A stretch of 64,000 nucleotides of DNA, taken from a bacterium. GTDB taxonomy: Bacteria > Actinomycetota > Acidimicrobiia > Acidimicrobiales > Bin134. Location: positions 18,070-82,069 of the forward strand of contig JAPPMA010000070.1 in assembly GCA_028819295.1 (NCBI GenBank), written 5' to 3'. The notes beneath the pieces were generated by a model. It did no database searches, was not told the origin of the DNA, and saw only the letters and a list, made by a program, of their open reading frames with translations. Positions 110 through 7,597 of the stretch are shown here, piece after piece; position 1 is the first letter of the stretch; each line of letters begins with the position of its first letter. Position numbers and translations under genes: made by a program.

Positions 110-1444
110 GTGAGTGCCCGCCCTCTCGCATCGACGGCGCCCAGCCCCAACCCCTTCTCGCCGGACTTCGGCCAGGTTCCCGACGCGCTCGTTGGACGCG
201 ACGACCTCCTCGCCGACCTCTATGAGGGGCTGGACGCCGGGCCCGGCGACAGCCGCTACACCAGCATCCTGCTGGGGGTGCGCGGATCGGGCAAGACAGT
301 CGTGCTAACAGAGGCCGAGCGCCACGCGGCCTCCTGCGGCTGGATAGTGCTGTCTGTCGACGCCGGCACCAATGGGCTCTTGGACCGCATATCGCAGGCG
401 ATCAGGCAGACCCCCCGCAAATACGAGAGCCTCGACCTCGGCGGGCTGGGAGGCCGCCGGACGACAACGGGCGACAAGAGCCTGAAAGTCGGCCCCTACC
501 AGGAGAAGCGGTCCGAGCAGGAGGTCTCCGACCCCGACGCCGACATGGGTCTGCGGGAGGAACTGGCCCTGCTGGCCGAGAAAGCCCAGCAGGCCGGAAC
601 GTCCGTGCTGTTGACCGTCGACGAGCTCCACTGCGCCGACAGGGACGAGGCCCGCAGGCTGTCGAACTACATACAGCACATCACCAAACGGTCCCAGCGC
701 CCGCTGGCGTTCATCGGCGCAGGCCTGCTGGAAATGCGCTACACCCTCATGGAGGACAAGAGAATCACCTTCTTCCGCAGATGCAACCGGCACGAGATGC
801 CGCCGCTGGACTTCGCCGACGCGTACAAGGGCCTCCGCTTCCCGATCCTCGACGCGGGAGGGTCGGTCACCGAACCGGCCCTGGAGCAGGCGGCCGCCGC
901 GGTCGGCGACCTCCCCTACACGCTGCAAGTGGTCGGACACACGGCATGGGCGCTCGCCGACGCCCCCGGACGGGAAATCGACGGCCACGCCGTCAGCCGG
1001 GCAGTGGCCATCGCAGAGAGGACCGTGGACGAGAACATCAGCGAACCGGCCTTCCACGAGCTCGCTGAAACCGAGCAGGAATACCTCGCCGCGCTGGCCG
1101 CGCTCGGCGGCAGCGGCACCATGGCGGAAATCGCCGGCCGGGCGGGGACAACCCCCAAAGCCGCCGCCAAGACGCACCGCAGGCTCGACCTGTCGGGATA
1201 CACGCGCCGAGACGACGGCGGAACCGTCACCCTCACCGGCCTCGTGCCGGCAAGGGTGATAGCCCGAAACGCTCCCGGCGGCGGCCCCGACCCCTCAGAC
1301 GGGCAACCCCGCACCGCACGCCCGGCCACCGCAGGCCCGACTCCTCCGACGCCCAAACGAGCCGCCTGCCGCAAATGGATGCCCCGCGCCAGGGCATACT
1401 GCACGCAGCCCCGCGACCACTCGGGGCGATGCCGCTCGAAGTGA
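110..1444 (+). CDS. AAA+ ATPase (Orc/Cdc6-like ATP-binding protein) with Cys/His tail, copy 1
   Basis: This 444-residue P-loop ATPase has Walker A GVRGSGKT (residues 56-63), Walker B VLLTVDE (166-172) and a winged-helix-like C-terminal half. It opens with the NPFSPDFG...LVGR signature of bacterial Orc/Cdc6-like ATPases. The last 25 residues form a separate tail with C420, C431, H437 and C441 (C-x10-C-x5-H-x3-C) around a WMPRA motif, possibly a small zinc finger. The GTG start at 110 lies just after the tandem repeat. Two homologues follow at 1701-3005 (minus) and 3077-4294 (plus). The family is a nucleotide-driven switch; the biological role here is unknown. Confidence 0.8.
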   Translation: MSARPLASTAPSPNPFSPDFGQVPDALVGRDDLLADLYEGLDAGPGDSRYTSILLGVRGSGKTVVLTEAERHAASCGWIVLSVDAGTNGLLDRISQAIRQTPRKYESLDLGGLGGRRTTTGDKSLKVGPYQEKRSEQEVSDPDADMGLREELALLAEKAQQAGTSVLLTVDELHCADRDEARRLSNYIQHITKRSQRPLAFIGAGLLEMRYTLMEDKRITFFRRCNRHEMPPLDFADAYKGLRFPILDAGGSVTEPALEQAAAAVGDLPYTLQVVGHTAWALADAPGREIDGHAVSRAVAIAERTVDENISEPAFHELAETEQEYLAALAALGGSGTMAEIAGRAGTTPKAAAKTHRRLDLSGYTRRDDGGTVTLTGLVPARVIARNAPGGGPDPSDGQPRTARPATAGPTPPTPKRAACRKWMPRARAYCTQPRDHSGRCRSK

Positions 1445-1458
1445 CAGAACCAGAGCAG

Positions 1459-1555
1459 AACGGCCGCACCATCGCCAACCTCTGCACAATAGACGACCTC
1501 GGGCACAGGCCCCGCCGACGACCAGGCCCAAGGCAACGCCGACTGCGCCGACTAA
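1459..1555 (+). pseudogene. Short GLUG-repeat surface protein remnant
   Basis: Immediately after the first ATPase gene, 1459-1482 reads NGRTIANL, the core of a GLUG repeat, in the same frame as the ATPase. A second frame (1499-1555) reads SGTGPADDQAQGNADCAD and then stops, like the end of a secreted repeat protein. The same NGRTIANL peptide occurs after the third ATPase copy at about 4341. No intact gene is present, so this is a decayed fragment. The GLUG assignment rests on eight residues here and is supported mainly by the longer copy downstream. Confidence 0.45.
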
Positions 1556-1700
1556 CAACCCGCCCACCGCCAACAGCGCGCAGAGCCCCGGAGGTGGCCG
1601 CGCTGTCGCAAGAGCGCCCACCTCCAATGCACAAGCACCTGTGGGCCCGCGCTCCACGGGATCGGCCCAGCGATTTGAAGGCCCATAGAATCGGGCCGGC

Positions 1701-3005
1701 CTATCTCCTCGACCTGTGACCACCCTTGTGGCCCCGGGCAAGCACGCATTTTGCCCTTGCCCGAGGCATATAGGCATTACAGGCGCCGGTGCTCTCATCT
1801 GGGGAAAGCGAGGCCGGATCGATATTGCCCAGATCGTATTCGGCCTCGCTGGCGGCAAGGCCTTGGACCGCCTCGGCTGTGAGCACACCTGCCAGCTGCA
1901 CTTTGCCCCCGTTTGTGCGATGCACATGGCCTGCGGCGGCGAGCCGACGCTCTGCTCGGGCCAGGCTGCGGCTGCTCGATTCTGGGAGTCGGCGAGCGAT
2001 GTCGCGAGGCGCACCCGTTCCCCCGCATGCTGACAATGCCTTGAGGAAGGACTGATCGGTTTCCCCGAGGTCGTGCCACATCGGAGAAATGACCTTCTCG
2101 GCCATGTCTTGACCGGCCATCTCTACCGCCATCTCCGCGGCTCTGGCGTCGATGGGCCTTTCTGGCGACCCGGACAGATCCCAGGCGTGATGCCCAATGC
2201 TTTGAAGCTTGTAGGGCAGCCCGTCGGCTGCGGCAGCCGCCATCAGCCGAAGGGCATCGTCGTGGACCTCGCCGTCGGACTCCTCTACCGTGAGGCGCAA
2301 ACACCGCCAAGCGTCATCATGGTTGATCGACGGCATCCCATCCCTGAAGCACCTGTGGAAGAACGTCATCTTCTTGTCTTCCAAGATGGTGTAGGCCATC
2401 TCGGGGAGGCCGGCTCCCACGAATGCCAGAGGGAGTTCTTTGATCTTGGTGATGTCCTGGATGTCGGAGGCCAGCCGGCGCAGTTCCTCCCTGTCGCCGG
2501 CGTGCATTTCATCCACCGTGAGCAGCACGGCAGAGCCCTGGTCCGCAGCCCATGAGCTCAGGGTCTCCAAGTAGTACCCGAGGCTCCATCGGGGACGCTG
2601 CTCTGGCATATCCTGCCAATTGATGCCAACCGGCCCAAGTGTGAGTCCAGCCAGCCTCCGGTCCCGGCGAGGGACCGGGGTCTTTGACGGGTCGGCTGCC
2701 TCGTAGCGTTCCCTGGCGTCGGCGATGCACGACGAGATGCGCCCCAGCAGCCCCGGCGTGGCTGCGTCAACGTCGAGCACAAGTAGTCCGCTGAAGGCGG
2801 CTTGCTCTCTGACCTCCGCGAGAATAGTGGTCTTGCCCGAACCGCGTTGGCCTAGAAGCAGCCTTGTGAATCCCTGGTCACCTGGACCGATGTACAAGGA
2901 TCGTCCAATGCTCTCCAAGAGCGACTGCCTGCCGACTAGCAGGGCAGGCCTCCGCCCGAAGTCGGGCGTAAACGGATTGGGGAGAAAGCTGGAGTGGTCC
3001 TCCAT
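1701..3005 (-). CDS. AAA+ ATPase (Orc/Cdc6-like) with Cys/His tail, copy 2
   Basis: This 434-residue paralogue of the gene at 110 is encoded on the opposite strand. It keeps the NPFTPDFG opening, Walker A GQRGSGKT (52-59), a Walker B strand VLLTVDEMH and the AFVGAGLPEM sensor-like segment. Its tail is C409-x10-C420-x5-H426-x3-H430, so the fourth ligand is His where the other copies have Cys. That is the swap expected between CCHC and CCHH zinc sites. The ATG at 3005 faces the 20-bp repeats at 3035-3094. It appears intact. Function is unknown; the tail as a zinc site is inferred. Confidence 0.8.
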   Translation of the reverse strand: MEDHSSFLPNPFTPDFGRRPALLVGRQSLLESIGRSLYIGPGDQGFTRLLLGQRGSGKTTILAEVREQAAFSGLLVLDVDAATPGLLGRISSCIADARERYEAADPSKTPVPRRDRRLAGLTLGPVGINWQDMPEQRPRWSLGYYLETLSSWAADQGSAVLLTVDEMHAGDREELRRLASDIQDITKIKELPLAFVGAGLPEMAYTILEDKKMTFFHRCFRDGMPSINHDDAWRCLRLTVEESDGEVHDDALRLMAAAAADGLPYKLQSIGHHAWDLSGSPERPIDARAAEMAVEMAGQDMAEKVISPMWHDLGETDQSFLKALSACGGTGAPRDIARRLPESSSRSLARAERRLAAAGHVHRTNGGKVQLAGVLTAEAVQGLAASEAEYDLGNIDPASLSPDESTGACNAYMPRARAKCVLARGHKGGHRSRR

Positions 3006-3034
3006 GCCCTTACCTTACCCCGATTAGCTGCATC

Positions 3035-3094
3035 AGATGTCCGCACTACGCATTAATTGTCCGCACTACGCATTAGATGTCCGCATTATGTATC
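3035..3094. repeat. Three 20-bp iteron-like direct repeats between divergent AAA+ genes
   Basis: Units at 3035-3054, 3055-3074 and 3075-3094 share TGTCCGCACTACGCATT; the third is degenerate. They occupy the 70-bp gap between the divergent ATPase copies 2 and 3. The core TGTCCGC differs by one base from the TGTGCGC that recurs in the 40-bp repeat before copy 1, so all three ATPase genes have a related repeated element upstream. The even 20-bp spacing (about two helical turns) fits cooperative protein binding on one DNA face. Function as operator or origin is inference. Confidence 0.8.
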
Positions 3095-4294
3095 GAGCCC
3101 GATAAACAGCCTGGGCCGCGGAGCACCGCCGACTGCTCGGCCGCGGGCCTGCGGGGGCCGGGTCTTGTAGGCGCAGTCCGCGGGGAGCTGTCCTGTGTGC
3201 AGTCCGTAGCGCTGCTCCCGCGCGACGGTGTGCACAGGAGCCAGGCCGCGCGCGGGCATGCAACCCCGGGCTTGGACGAGTTGGCCGGCGCCAAGTCGAA
3301 GGAGCGCAGGAGAGGCGTCAAGGTGGGCCCGTACCAGGCGGGTTGGGCCGAGACGGAGTTGTTCGATCCCGCTGTCGACATGGGGTTACGGGAGCGGCTC
3401 ACCGTGATGGCCAGAGCTGCCCAGCGGGCGGGCTCGGCCGTGTTGCTCACTTTGGACGAACTGCACAGCGCCGACAGGGACGAGGCCCGACGACTGGCCA
3501 GCGATATCCAGCACATCACCAAGAAGGGCCGTTTGCCGCTGGCGTTCGTGGGCGCCGGGCTGTTGGAGATGAAATACACGCTGATGGAGGGGAAGAAGAA
3601 CACCTTCTTCAAACGGTGCCACTCCTGCGACATGCCCCCTCTGACCTACCCCGATGCACTCCAGGGGATTCGCTTCCCGATCGAGGAGACGGGCGGGACA
3701 ATCGCAGGCACTGCTCTGCGGAGCGCTGCTTCCGCTGTCGACGGCTCTCCCTACAAGATGCAGCTTATAGGGCACGCAGCCTGGAAAACGGCGAATGCGC
3801 CCGTAGGCGAGGTTGACGACTTCGCCGTCGAGCTGGCCATAGAGTCCGCAGAGGACACGATGTTGAGGAACATCAGCGAACCGGCGTTCTACGACCTCTC
3901 GAACGACGAGCAGGAATACCTGGTGTCGCTGGTCTCGCTGGGAGAAAGAGGCACGACCAGGGCGATCGCCGGAATGACGGGAATTGGCGAGAGGGAGACC
4001 CGGAGAACAGCCCGCAGGCTTGAATTGGCCGGATACATCGTCAGAGACCAGCGCGGTCCGCCCGCGCTGACCAATCTCGTGCCGAGAAGCGTGATAGCCG
4101 ACGAGGGCGGCTTGGACATAGGCGAACACAGTCCGGCGACCGCAGAAGGGCTCGCCGGGAGCGCGGATCCCCCCCACTTGGCAGACCGGGGCCCGCGTCC
4201 GGCATCCTGGCCGAACTGCCGGCGGTGGATGCCCCGAGCGGAGGCATACTGCGTGCTGCCTCGCGACCACTCCGGCAGATGCCGCTCGCGATAA
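3077..4294 (+). pseudogene. AAA+ ATPase paralogue lacking its P-loop, copy 3
   Basis: From about 3322 (VKVGPYQ) to the end this matches copy 1 closely, including Walker B VLLTLDELH, AFVGAGLLEM and the tail C381-x10-C392-x5-H398-x3-C402. The first 80 or so residues do not match: there is no NPF opening and no Walker A. The nominal ATG at 3077 falls inside the repeat array, so it is doubtful. I read this as a 5'-deleted copy, though a shortened protein starting at an internal ATG such as 3379 could be made and act with an intact partner. The downstream coding sequence is uninterrupted, so decay is recent or the remainder is still selected. Confidence 0.65.
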
Positions 4295-5975: not shown

Positions 5976-7076
5976 CTATTGGCTGGCTTGTGCTAGCGGC
6001 ACTTCGCAGGCTTGATCGAGGTCGATCTCCGCGGTGATGTGGCCGTTGCCGTGGGGGCCGGCGCCCCAGGAGGGCATGACGGTGGAGTACAGCCCGGTGC
6101 CGCCGGCCACCATAACGAGCAGTGCCTCGGGGCTGCTGAGGGCGTGGACCGCCAACTCGGGGTCGTCGCCTTGGCTGCGCTGGTGGCGGTCGATGCCCGA
6201 GCCTCGGGCCCGCACTGTGGACAGTTCCGACCAGGAGCGCTTGGCCCGGTGGTGCAGCGCCTCGGCGATGGTGGCCCGGTCGTGGCCCACGTCGGCCAGG
6301 GCGATGGCGTGGTCGGGGTTGAGCACCAGCACCTGGGTGCCCCGGGCGAAATGGGTGTTGTTGGCGCCCAGCCCCGAGAGCGAGGCGGCCAGTGCGTTCA
6401 ACAGGTGGTCGGCGTACACCTCGGGGTCGTCGTCGGGGAAGCACAGCACCGAATGCGGCCCTTCGGTGCAGGCCACGGTGACCGTGCTCTGGTCGATGCC
6501 GTAGCCCAGCGAGGTGTGCAGCGGCGGGAAGGGGCTGGCCTCCTCGTCCTCGCCCAGGCAGAACGTGAACTTGCCGGGATGGCCGAGCAGCGCCATGTCG
6601 GAGGTGCCGGGACGCCCGCCGCCGATGTTGATCATGGCCAGGCGCACCGCCCGGCCGATGCTGGCGTTGGCCCGGTGCCCCGGTCCCAGGGCGCCGAATC
6701 CCGAGGCGATGCCGCAGGCGTCCACCGCCGGGCCGTTGACCACGAGCATCGGCCCCAGGTTGTGGGTGGTGGCCTGCACCTCGGTCATGTCCATCCGGGG
6801 GTCGCACACCGCCCGCACGGCCGCCGCCACTACCGGGAAGTGGTCGGGCAGACAGCCGGCCATCACCGCGGCGACAGCGGCCTTCTCCACGGTGGCCTCG
6901 CCCAGGTTGGGACCGAGCTGGCCCAGCGAGACATCGCCATCGAGGCCTGAGGCCAACACCATGCGCTCAACCCGGGCCGGGGTGGGGATCACCACCGGCA
7001 GCCCATCGGTGCAGCCCGCCTCGTGAAGCTGCTCGAGGGCAGCCTCCTCGGAGAGCGCGGTCAGCCGTTGGCTCAT
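5976..7076 (-). CDS. Conserved partner protein of the UGSC selenoprotein
   Basis: This 366-residue soluble protein overlaps the stop of the upstream UGSC selenoprotein gene in ATGA, so the two are translationally coupled. Conserved-looking segments include CTDGLPVVIPT near residue 22, EKAAVAAVMAGCLPDHFPVV, VQATTHNLGPMLVVNGP and GHPGKFTFC. The cysteines in the CTDG and AGCLPD motifs are the obvious candidates for redox or metal chemistry with the selenoprotein. I know this family only as an unannotated companion of UGSC proteins. Its reaction is unknown, and names such as thioredoxin for such proteins would not be supported by this sequence. Confidence 0.75.
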   Translation of the reverse strand: MSQRLTALSEEAALEQLHEAGCTDGLPVVIPTPARVERMVLASGLDGDVSLGQLGPNLGEATVEKAAVAAVMAGCLPDHFPVVAAAVRAVCDPRMDMTEVQATTHNLGPMLVVNGPAVDACGIASGFGALGPGHRANASIGRAVRLAMINIGGGRPGTSDMALLGHPGKFTFCLGEDEEASPFPPLHTSLGYGIDQSTVTVACTEGPHSVLCFPDDDPEVYADHLLNALAASLSGLGANNTHFARGTQVLVLNPDHAIALADVGHDRATIAEALHHRAKRSWSELSTVRARGSGIDRHQRSQGDDPELAVHALSSPEALLVMVAGGTGLYSTVMPSWGAGPHGNGHITAEIDLDQACEVPLAQASQ

Positions 7077-7597
7077 CCGGCGCCCAGCGCCTGGAGCACC
7101 TCGTCGGCGATGTCGTCGGCCACCATCTGTATGGCCTTCTCCCCGGTGCCGGCCACCGGGTGGGGGAGGATCACCCGGGGAATGTCGGGCATTCCCGCAG
7201 ACCGGGCCACGAATTCGCCCTGCGGTGAGAATTTCGTGGTCACCAGGGCCACCGCCGGCGTGTCGCGCCGGGCGGCCTTGATGGCGTCACGCACGGTGCC
7301 GCTGGTGCAGCTTCCTCAATGGCCGTAGGCGGCCACCACCGCGTCGCACGACTCGGTGATCTCGCCGATGAGCTGATCGTCGGCCACCATCGAGGCGTTG
7401 CCCTTGTTCCAGGCCCGCACTTCGAGGTCGGGGCGAACCCGGCGCAGGCTCTCTCCCACCGCGTCCAGGAACGGCGCCGAGTCGGGGAATCCGTTGGCGA
7501 GGAGCCCCACTGTGAGGGTTCCACCTCCCGCGGAGAGGTCATAGGGGGTCACCGGCTCGGCCGGTTCTGCCTTTGGGTCCAAGTATTCGATCGCCAT
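7073..7597 (-). CDS. UGSC-family selenoprotein (in-frame UGA read as selenocysteine)
   Basis: The reading frame from ATG 7597 runs through an in-frame TGA at 7318-7316 and continues to the stop at 7073-7075, giving 174 residues with the UGA at codon 94. The context is AAYGH-U-GSC-TSGTVRDAI, which is exactly the U-G-S-C motif that names the UGSC (seleno)protein family; Cys homologues carry CGSC. The halves make one continuous alpha/beta protein: a GLLANGFPDSAPFL segment before and PAVALVTTKFSPQGEF after the motif. A plain nonsense mutation is unlikely because the downstream half is clean and ends in an ATGA overlap with its partner. Selenocysteine insertion needs SelA, SelB, SelD and tRNA-Sec elsewhere in the genome. 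Function is presumed redox. Confidence 0.85.
7290..7315 (-). promoter_or_regulatory. Candidate SECIS region after the UGA codon
   Basis: Bacterial SECIS hairpins lie directly 3' of the UGA within the coding region. Here the mRNA segment 7309-7290 can form UGCAC/GUGCG (one G-U pair) around the 10-nt loop CAGCGGCACC. The loop begins about 11 nt past the UGA, a little closer than usual. The pairing was found by eye, not folded, so the exact structure is uncertain. Confidence 0.35.

Follow-up and report, generated by a model that had tools for sequence, protein, structure and literature searches.

A UGSC-family selenoprotein gene of an Acidimicrobiia genome, its near-obligate partner, and the likely remote kinship of UGSC to GrdB and PrdB

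The window, i.e., the whole stretch of 64,000 nucleotides analyzed here (contig JAPPMA010000070.1 of an Acidimicrobiia assembly), carries on its minus strand a UGSC gene interrupted by an in-frame TGA and, directly downstream, the gene for a larger partner protein. The features at this locus are as follows, with positions given in window coordinates.

7076-7597, minus strand: coding region of the UGSC selenoprotein with Sec94, 174 aa, stop TGA at 7075-7073, AlphaFold2 pLDDT 96.2
7316-7318, minus strand: in-frame TGA read as selenocysteine, the U of U-G-S-C (homologue column: TGA in 79 of 83, Cys in 3)
7284-7302, minus strand: SECIS-like hairpin of 3 bp, a G.A mismatch, 3 bp, and the loop CGUGC
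5979-7076, minus strand: partner protein, 366 aa, overlapping the UGSC gene at ATGA, without a family in Pfam or NCBIfam

Positions 110-4294 of the window hold three adjacent paralogous AAA-type ATPase ORFs on alternating strands (110-1444 plus, 1701-3005 minus, and 3077-4294 plus), the third of which has an apparently truncated N-terminus.

Read from 7597 to 7073 with TGA as U, the frame gives MAIEYLDPKAEP...DAVVAAYGH-U-G-S-C-TSGTVRDAIKAARRDTPAVALVTTKF...LGAG, a protein of 174 residues. U94 sits in the context GH-U-G-S-C-T, and the motif U94-G95-S96-C97 is of the U-G-S-C (or C-G-S-C) type that marks the family. Direct reading of 7597-7073 found no TAA, TAG, or further TGA inside the frame, and the terminal TGA (7075-7073) overlaps the ATG of the partner gene (7076-7074) as ATGA. 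The preliminary description of this DNA had given the same coordinates, had placed the TGA (7318-7316) exactly at the U of what it called a family-defining motif, and had described the downstream half as free of other defects and ending in an ATGA overlap; these points are correct by direct reading.

The protein matched the Pfam family UGSC (PF24696) at 145.8 bits against a gathering cut-off of 25, and the match was full-length, spanning residues 6-172 and profile positions 3-171 of 172. The family membership supposed in the preliminary description is thereby confirmed, for a family that was already known. Its score of 106.2 bits with the NCBIfam profile UGSC_fam (NF041046) lies under the strict equivalog cut-off of 125; by that cut-off it is a member of the broad family that falls outside the strict equivalog. 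UGSC-containing proteins were described in 2008 as a major selenoprotein family from ocean metagenomes (Zhang and Gladyshev; PMC2398784), with 255 Sec and 21 Cys forms counted (PMC2398784). On sequence grounds, the interrupted gene is an intact selenoprotein of this known, functionally uncharacterised family.

In the host genome (3.56 Mb, 108 contigs, completeness about 95%), five UGSC genes were found, and every one of them contains a single in-frame TGA. A search for selenocysteine genes, which the preliminary description had proposed, found SelA (TIGR00474, 400 bits) overlapping SelB (300 bits, cut-off 242) on contig C99, which also carries tRNA-Sec (67.5 bits against a cut-off of 47). SelD (349 bits; G000:C65:33034-33975, L175) has an in-frame TGA of its own, and thus selenophosphate synthetase is itself a selenoprotein in this genome. 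All four components by which bacterial selenoprotein synthesis was judged are present.

To gather homologues, public genomes were scanned with the profile of the partner; this gave 521 confirmed relatives, and 80 loci were kept, from Actinomycetota, Gamma- and Betaproteobacteria, Rokubacteria, Binatia, Dehalococcoidia, others, and one haloarchaeon. Exactly one TGA, in the U94 column, was found in 79 of the 83 UGSC matches at these loci, across many phyla. Cys stands there in three (L110, L112, and L118 of Natrialba asiatica), such that the alignment gave the expected U or C in all but one degenerate copy with Gln for Sec. This Gln-bearing copy (L174:188-724) adjoins a partner gene and is perhaps a Sec-independent paralogue. 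In three homologues, the last motif residue is Ser (UGSS). Three loci (L111, L124, and L171) came from bins titled Klebsiella pneumoniae or Bordetella parapertussis, which are apparently mislabelled environmental bins.

Within the class, 104 of 296 genomes carry UGSC, and the copies listed contain one TGA or no stop, with TAA or TAG in none of those listed. By hand tally, SelB was detected at E <1e-70 in 87 of the 104 UGSC genomes compared with 73 of the 192 other class genomes. Among 11 genomes whose listed UGSC copies are all stop-free (presumed Cys forms), SelB was absent in nine. Five genomes with TGA copies had no SelB at E <1e-70, and several of these are incomplete assemblies.

Downstream of the TGA, where the preliminary description had suggested looking for a bacterial SECIS element, a SECIS-like hairpin starts 13 nt past the UGA codon. 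It was examined in the subfamily of the window protein, comprising 19 sequences from Acidimicrobiia and Gammaproteobacteria. All six pairs are kept in 19 of 19 sequences, and the codons GGC ACC GTG CGT GAC are nucleotide-identical throughout, with varying codons on either side. The window copy shows a compensatory change at the outermost pair (G-C for C-G), and two other subfamily sequences show one at the second pair. Pairing was 100% as observed and 70% under synonymous resampling of the 19 relatives (0 of 500 resamples reached the observed value). For a related hairpin in 111 other sequences, the corresponding values were 94.9% and 65.9% (again 0 of 500); one of its pairs shows a large G-C to C-G exchange. 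In L110, the nearest Cys form, the hairpin is gone. Taken by itself, the hairpin sequence of the window is not significant, as 132 of 2000 resamples reached its pairing, and an Rfam search with it gave no match. The hairpin thus lies at the expected place, and its pairing across relatives is far above the synonymous-codon controls.

A frame split by ordinary gene calling could also be the mark of a nonsense mutation in a pseudogene, or of a Cys codon misread through a sequencing error. TGA occupies the same column in nearly all homologues and in all five copies of the host genome, the Sec machinery is present, and the hairpin is constrained, all of which leaves this explanation with a negligible probability; the conservation of the TGA refutes it. 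General reassignment of TGA to a sense codon (Trp or Gly) in the host genome is equally improbable and was likewise rejected: three of the five UGSC copies, the window gene among them, terminate in TGA, the U is replaced only by Cys in clear members, and tRNA-Sec, SelA, SelB, and SelD are all encoded. The UGA is almost certainly decoded as Sec through the downstream SECIS-like hairpin, in a genome with the complete Sec machinery.

The partner had no match in Pfam or NCBIfam, and neither did any of 61 relatives. The five partner genes of the host genome are all paired with its five UGSC genes, in both gene orders. Among the 296 class genomes, 103 have both genes, one has UGSC only, two have the partner only, and 190 have neither, and the copy numbers are equal in 94 of the 106 genomes with either gene (both by hand tally). 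A UGSC gene lies nearby in 74 of the 80 loci kept from the partner-profile scan. At two loci (L041 and L047), high-scoring UGSC genes have no partner within 1.5 kb on either side. Natural fusions, in which one open frame holds both proteins with the UGA inside, were found at 15 loci (L126 and L163 were read fully); the 2008 paper reported UGSC fused to a domain called 'Unknown_1' (PMC2398784), which is plausibly the same fusion. The distance matrices of the two proteins correlate with a mirror-tree r of 0.861 over 136 pairs, compared with 0.051 for the best of 500 permutations. As the partner gene almost always adjoins UGSC, in some cases forms a fusion with it, and shares its inheritance, the two proteins very probably act as one unit. 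The preliminary description had spoken of a compact redox unit; the pairing, fusions, and mirror-tree bear out the compact unit; its redox character is inferred.

Invariant residues of the partner are D24-G25, R142, and E176. Cys 75 and Cys 173 are common but not invariant, and in one subfamily (L070, L074, L081, and a copy of the host genome at L029:6383-7426) Ala and Val or a similar residue replace them, often jointly. That the partner binds an iron-sulphur cluster or carries a Cys-derived pyruvoyl group is improbable, given that both common cysteines are missing in many members. The predicted structure of the partner (pLDDT 92.7) found no good match in the PDB, the best being class I fumarase (Z 4.5, 5.4 A). 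Sequence searches of the PDB with UGSC, the partner, and GrdB retrieved no credible relative, and the partner showed no similarity to the GRDB or UGSC profiles. Genes neighbouring the pairs encode TctC, CoA transferase III, MmgE/PrpD, short-chain dehydrogenases, and fumarase, a mixture too varied to name a substrate.

The predicted structure of the UGSC protein (pLDDT 96.2) is a five-stranded beta-alpha repeat in which Sec94 lies between strand 86-92 and helix 95-110, just where the helix starts. Its fold matches were generic flavodoxin-like, TIR, PurE, and receiver domains; Trx folds were absent among the matches listed, an absence that alone does not exclude a Trx fold. According to this model, UGSC is highly likely to be an alpha/beta domain of the flavodoxin-like kind, its Sec sitting at a helix N-terminus. 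Published work (PMC2398784, PMC13188914) places UGSC in lists of probable Trx-like proteins, a placement that the model calls into question.

Profile comparisons linked UGSC to the Sec subunits of glycine and proline reductases. Against actinobacterial GrdB sequences, which themselves contain Sec (motif U-G-T), hhalign gave a score of 42.3 over 71 columns with Sec aligned on Sec (E 1.8e-5, for a single comparison); 150 column-shuffles scored at most 23.3, and the score was 35.5 with the motif masked. The match to short PrdB-like selenoproteins (U-P-x-C) was stronger, with a probability of 91, a score of 46.9, and Sec again on Sec (E 9.4e-7, also for a single comparison), where shuffles reached at most 22.8 and masking of the motif left 46.5. 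The GrdB and PrdB-like profiles matched each other at E 9e-28. The similarity spans the Sec domain and exceeds all shuffles but is remote, and the controls consisted of shuffled and reversed profiles only. In a Pfam scan of 56 UGSC proteins (E up to 1), GRDB (PF07355) was absent among the families listed, and the host genome has no GRDB match. We consider it likely that UGSC is remotely homologous to the Sec domain found in GrdB and PrdB. The short PrdB-like selenoproteins (UPxC; L211-L222) occur in scattered actinobacterial genomes and match only the C-terminal part of GRDB.

Kinship of the partner to GrdE was not detected: it scored 17.7 with the GrdE profile (PF09338), within the range of shuffles, and had no Pfam match. 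Thus, there is no sign of the pyruvoyl component of the Grd mechanism.

In GrdB and PrdB, Sec is thought to attack a carbon of the substrate, which is held by a second protein, so that a C-N bond and then the Se-C bond are broken (PMC10298544). Several substrate-specific protein B pairs often occur in one genome, and one pair, whose partner lacks the pyruvoyl cysteines, was proposed to cleave C-F in fluoroacetate (PMC10838667). As UGSC and its partner share this layout of a small Sec subunit, a larger partner, and multiple pairs, reductive bond cleavage is proposed. Overall, we somewhat favor the explanation that UGSC and its near-obligate partner form one GrdB/PrdB-like enzyme. The N-terminus of the helix would keep the selenol of UGSC ionised, and the selenolate would attack a substrate carbon, with the substrate held mostly by the partner. 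An amine, halide, or other leaving group would be released, as in glycine or D-proline reductase, and the nearby Cys97, together with an external thiol, would resolve the resulting selenoether or selenenyl intermediate. Where a genome has several paralogous pairs, these would differ in substrate, as do the substrate-specific protein B complexes. This chemistry is drawn by analogy and put forward tentatively.

Two other functions were weighed against this enzyme. UGSC could be a general thioredoxin-like thiol-selenol oxidoreductase that keeps the partner, or the substrate of the partner, reduced; UxxC resembles redox motifs, and a Trx-like fold has been called likely in print (PMC2398784, PMC13188914). 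The confident model is instead flavodoxin-like: Sec follows the third strand, where a helix begins, and the top matches are flavodoxin/TIR/PurE-like. The second Cys is Ser in the UGSS homologues, which therefore fit a CxxC-type cycle poorly. We regard this function as improbable, and the distant GrdB/PrdB kinship speaks for reductive cleavage of a bond and not for generic redox activity of the thioredoxin-like kind. Alternatively, the pair could depend on Sec without being reductive, acting as a lyase, isomerase, or hydrolase; Sec would then be the nucleophile or base, and the active site would be built by the partner. The invariant D24, R142, and E176 of the partner look catalytic, its model weakly resembles class I fumarase and cyclic amide hydrolases (Z <=4.5), and the many paralogues suggest diverse substrates. 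These fold matches are, however, too weak for reliance, and near-universal Sec with a following Cys, together with the GrdB/PrdB kinship, favors reduction. A non-reductive enzyme is thus unlikely, if less so than the thioredoxin-like function. Returning to the GrdB/PrdB-like enzyme, a wider picture can be ventured with even more reserve than the chemistry: UGSC and its partner may represent a widespread two-part selenoenzyme of GrdB/PrdB relatives with a non-GrdE partner, one that has diversified among free-living bacteria into numerous substrate-specific pairs and cleaves C-N or C-X bonds reductively.

The selenoprotein family itself is known; relative to the literature found, the new elements are a near-obligate partner without a name, the fold predicted for UGSC, and the remote GrdB/PrdB link. 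A near-obligate partner missing from family databases, its fusions, and the likely GrdB/PrdB kinship turn an 'unknown redox protein' into a testable two-protein enzyme. For annotation, both split UGSC fragments should be merged and the partner should be given a name.

Compared with known systems, the UGSC literature (PMC2398784, PMC13188914) suggested a Trx-like fold and did not describe the near-obligate partner or the GrdB/PrdB kinship. With regard to thioredoxin-fold selenoproteins, the UGSC protein of the window is modelled as a flavodoxin-like beta-alpha repeat (pLDDT 96), which is a prediction and not a solved structure. Class I fumarase and the Toblerone cyclic amide hydrolases are the best fold matches of the partner model, but with Z <=4.5, rmsd >5 A, and no sequence similarity they are unusable as an assignment. 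UGSC differs from GrdB in its length of about 174 aa, without the N-terminal half of GrdB, and occurs in genomes without GRDB matches, including the host genome; its partner, unlike the second protein of the glycine/proline reductase complex, is not detectably related to GrdE (PF09338). The likeness to GrdB and PrdB extends over 71-77 aligned columns with Sec on Sec, and UGSC and the PrdB-like proteins alike have a Cys three residues on from Sec. As with GrdB and GrdE, a Sec subunit is joined by a larger protein partner, with several pairs per genome.
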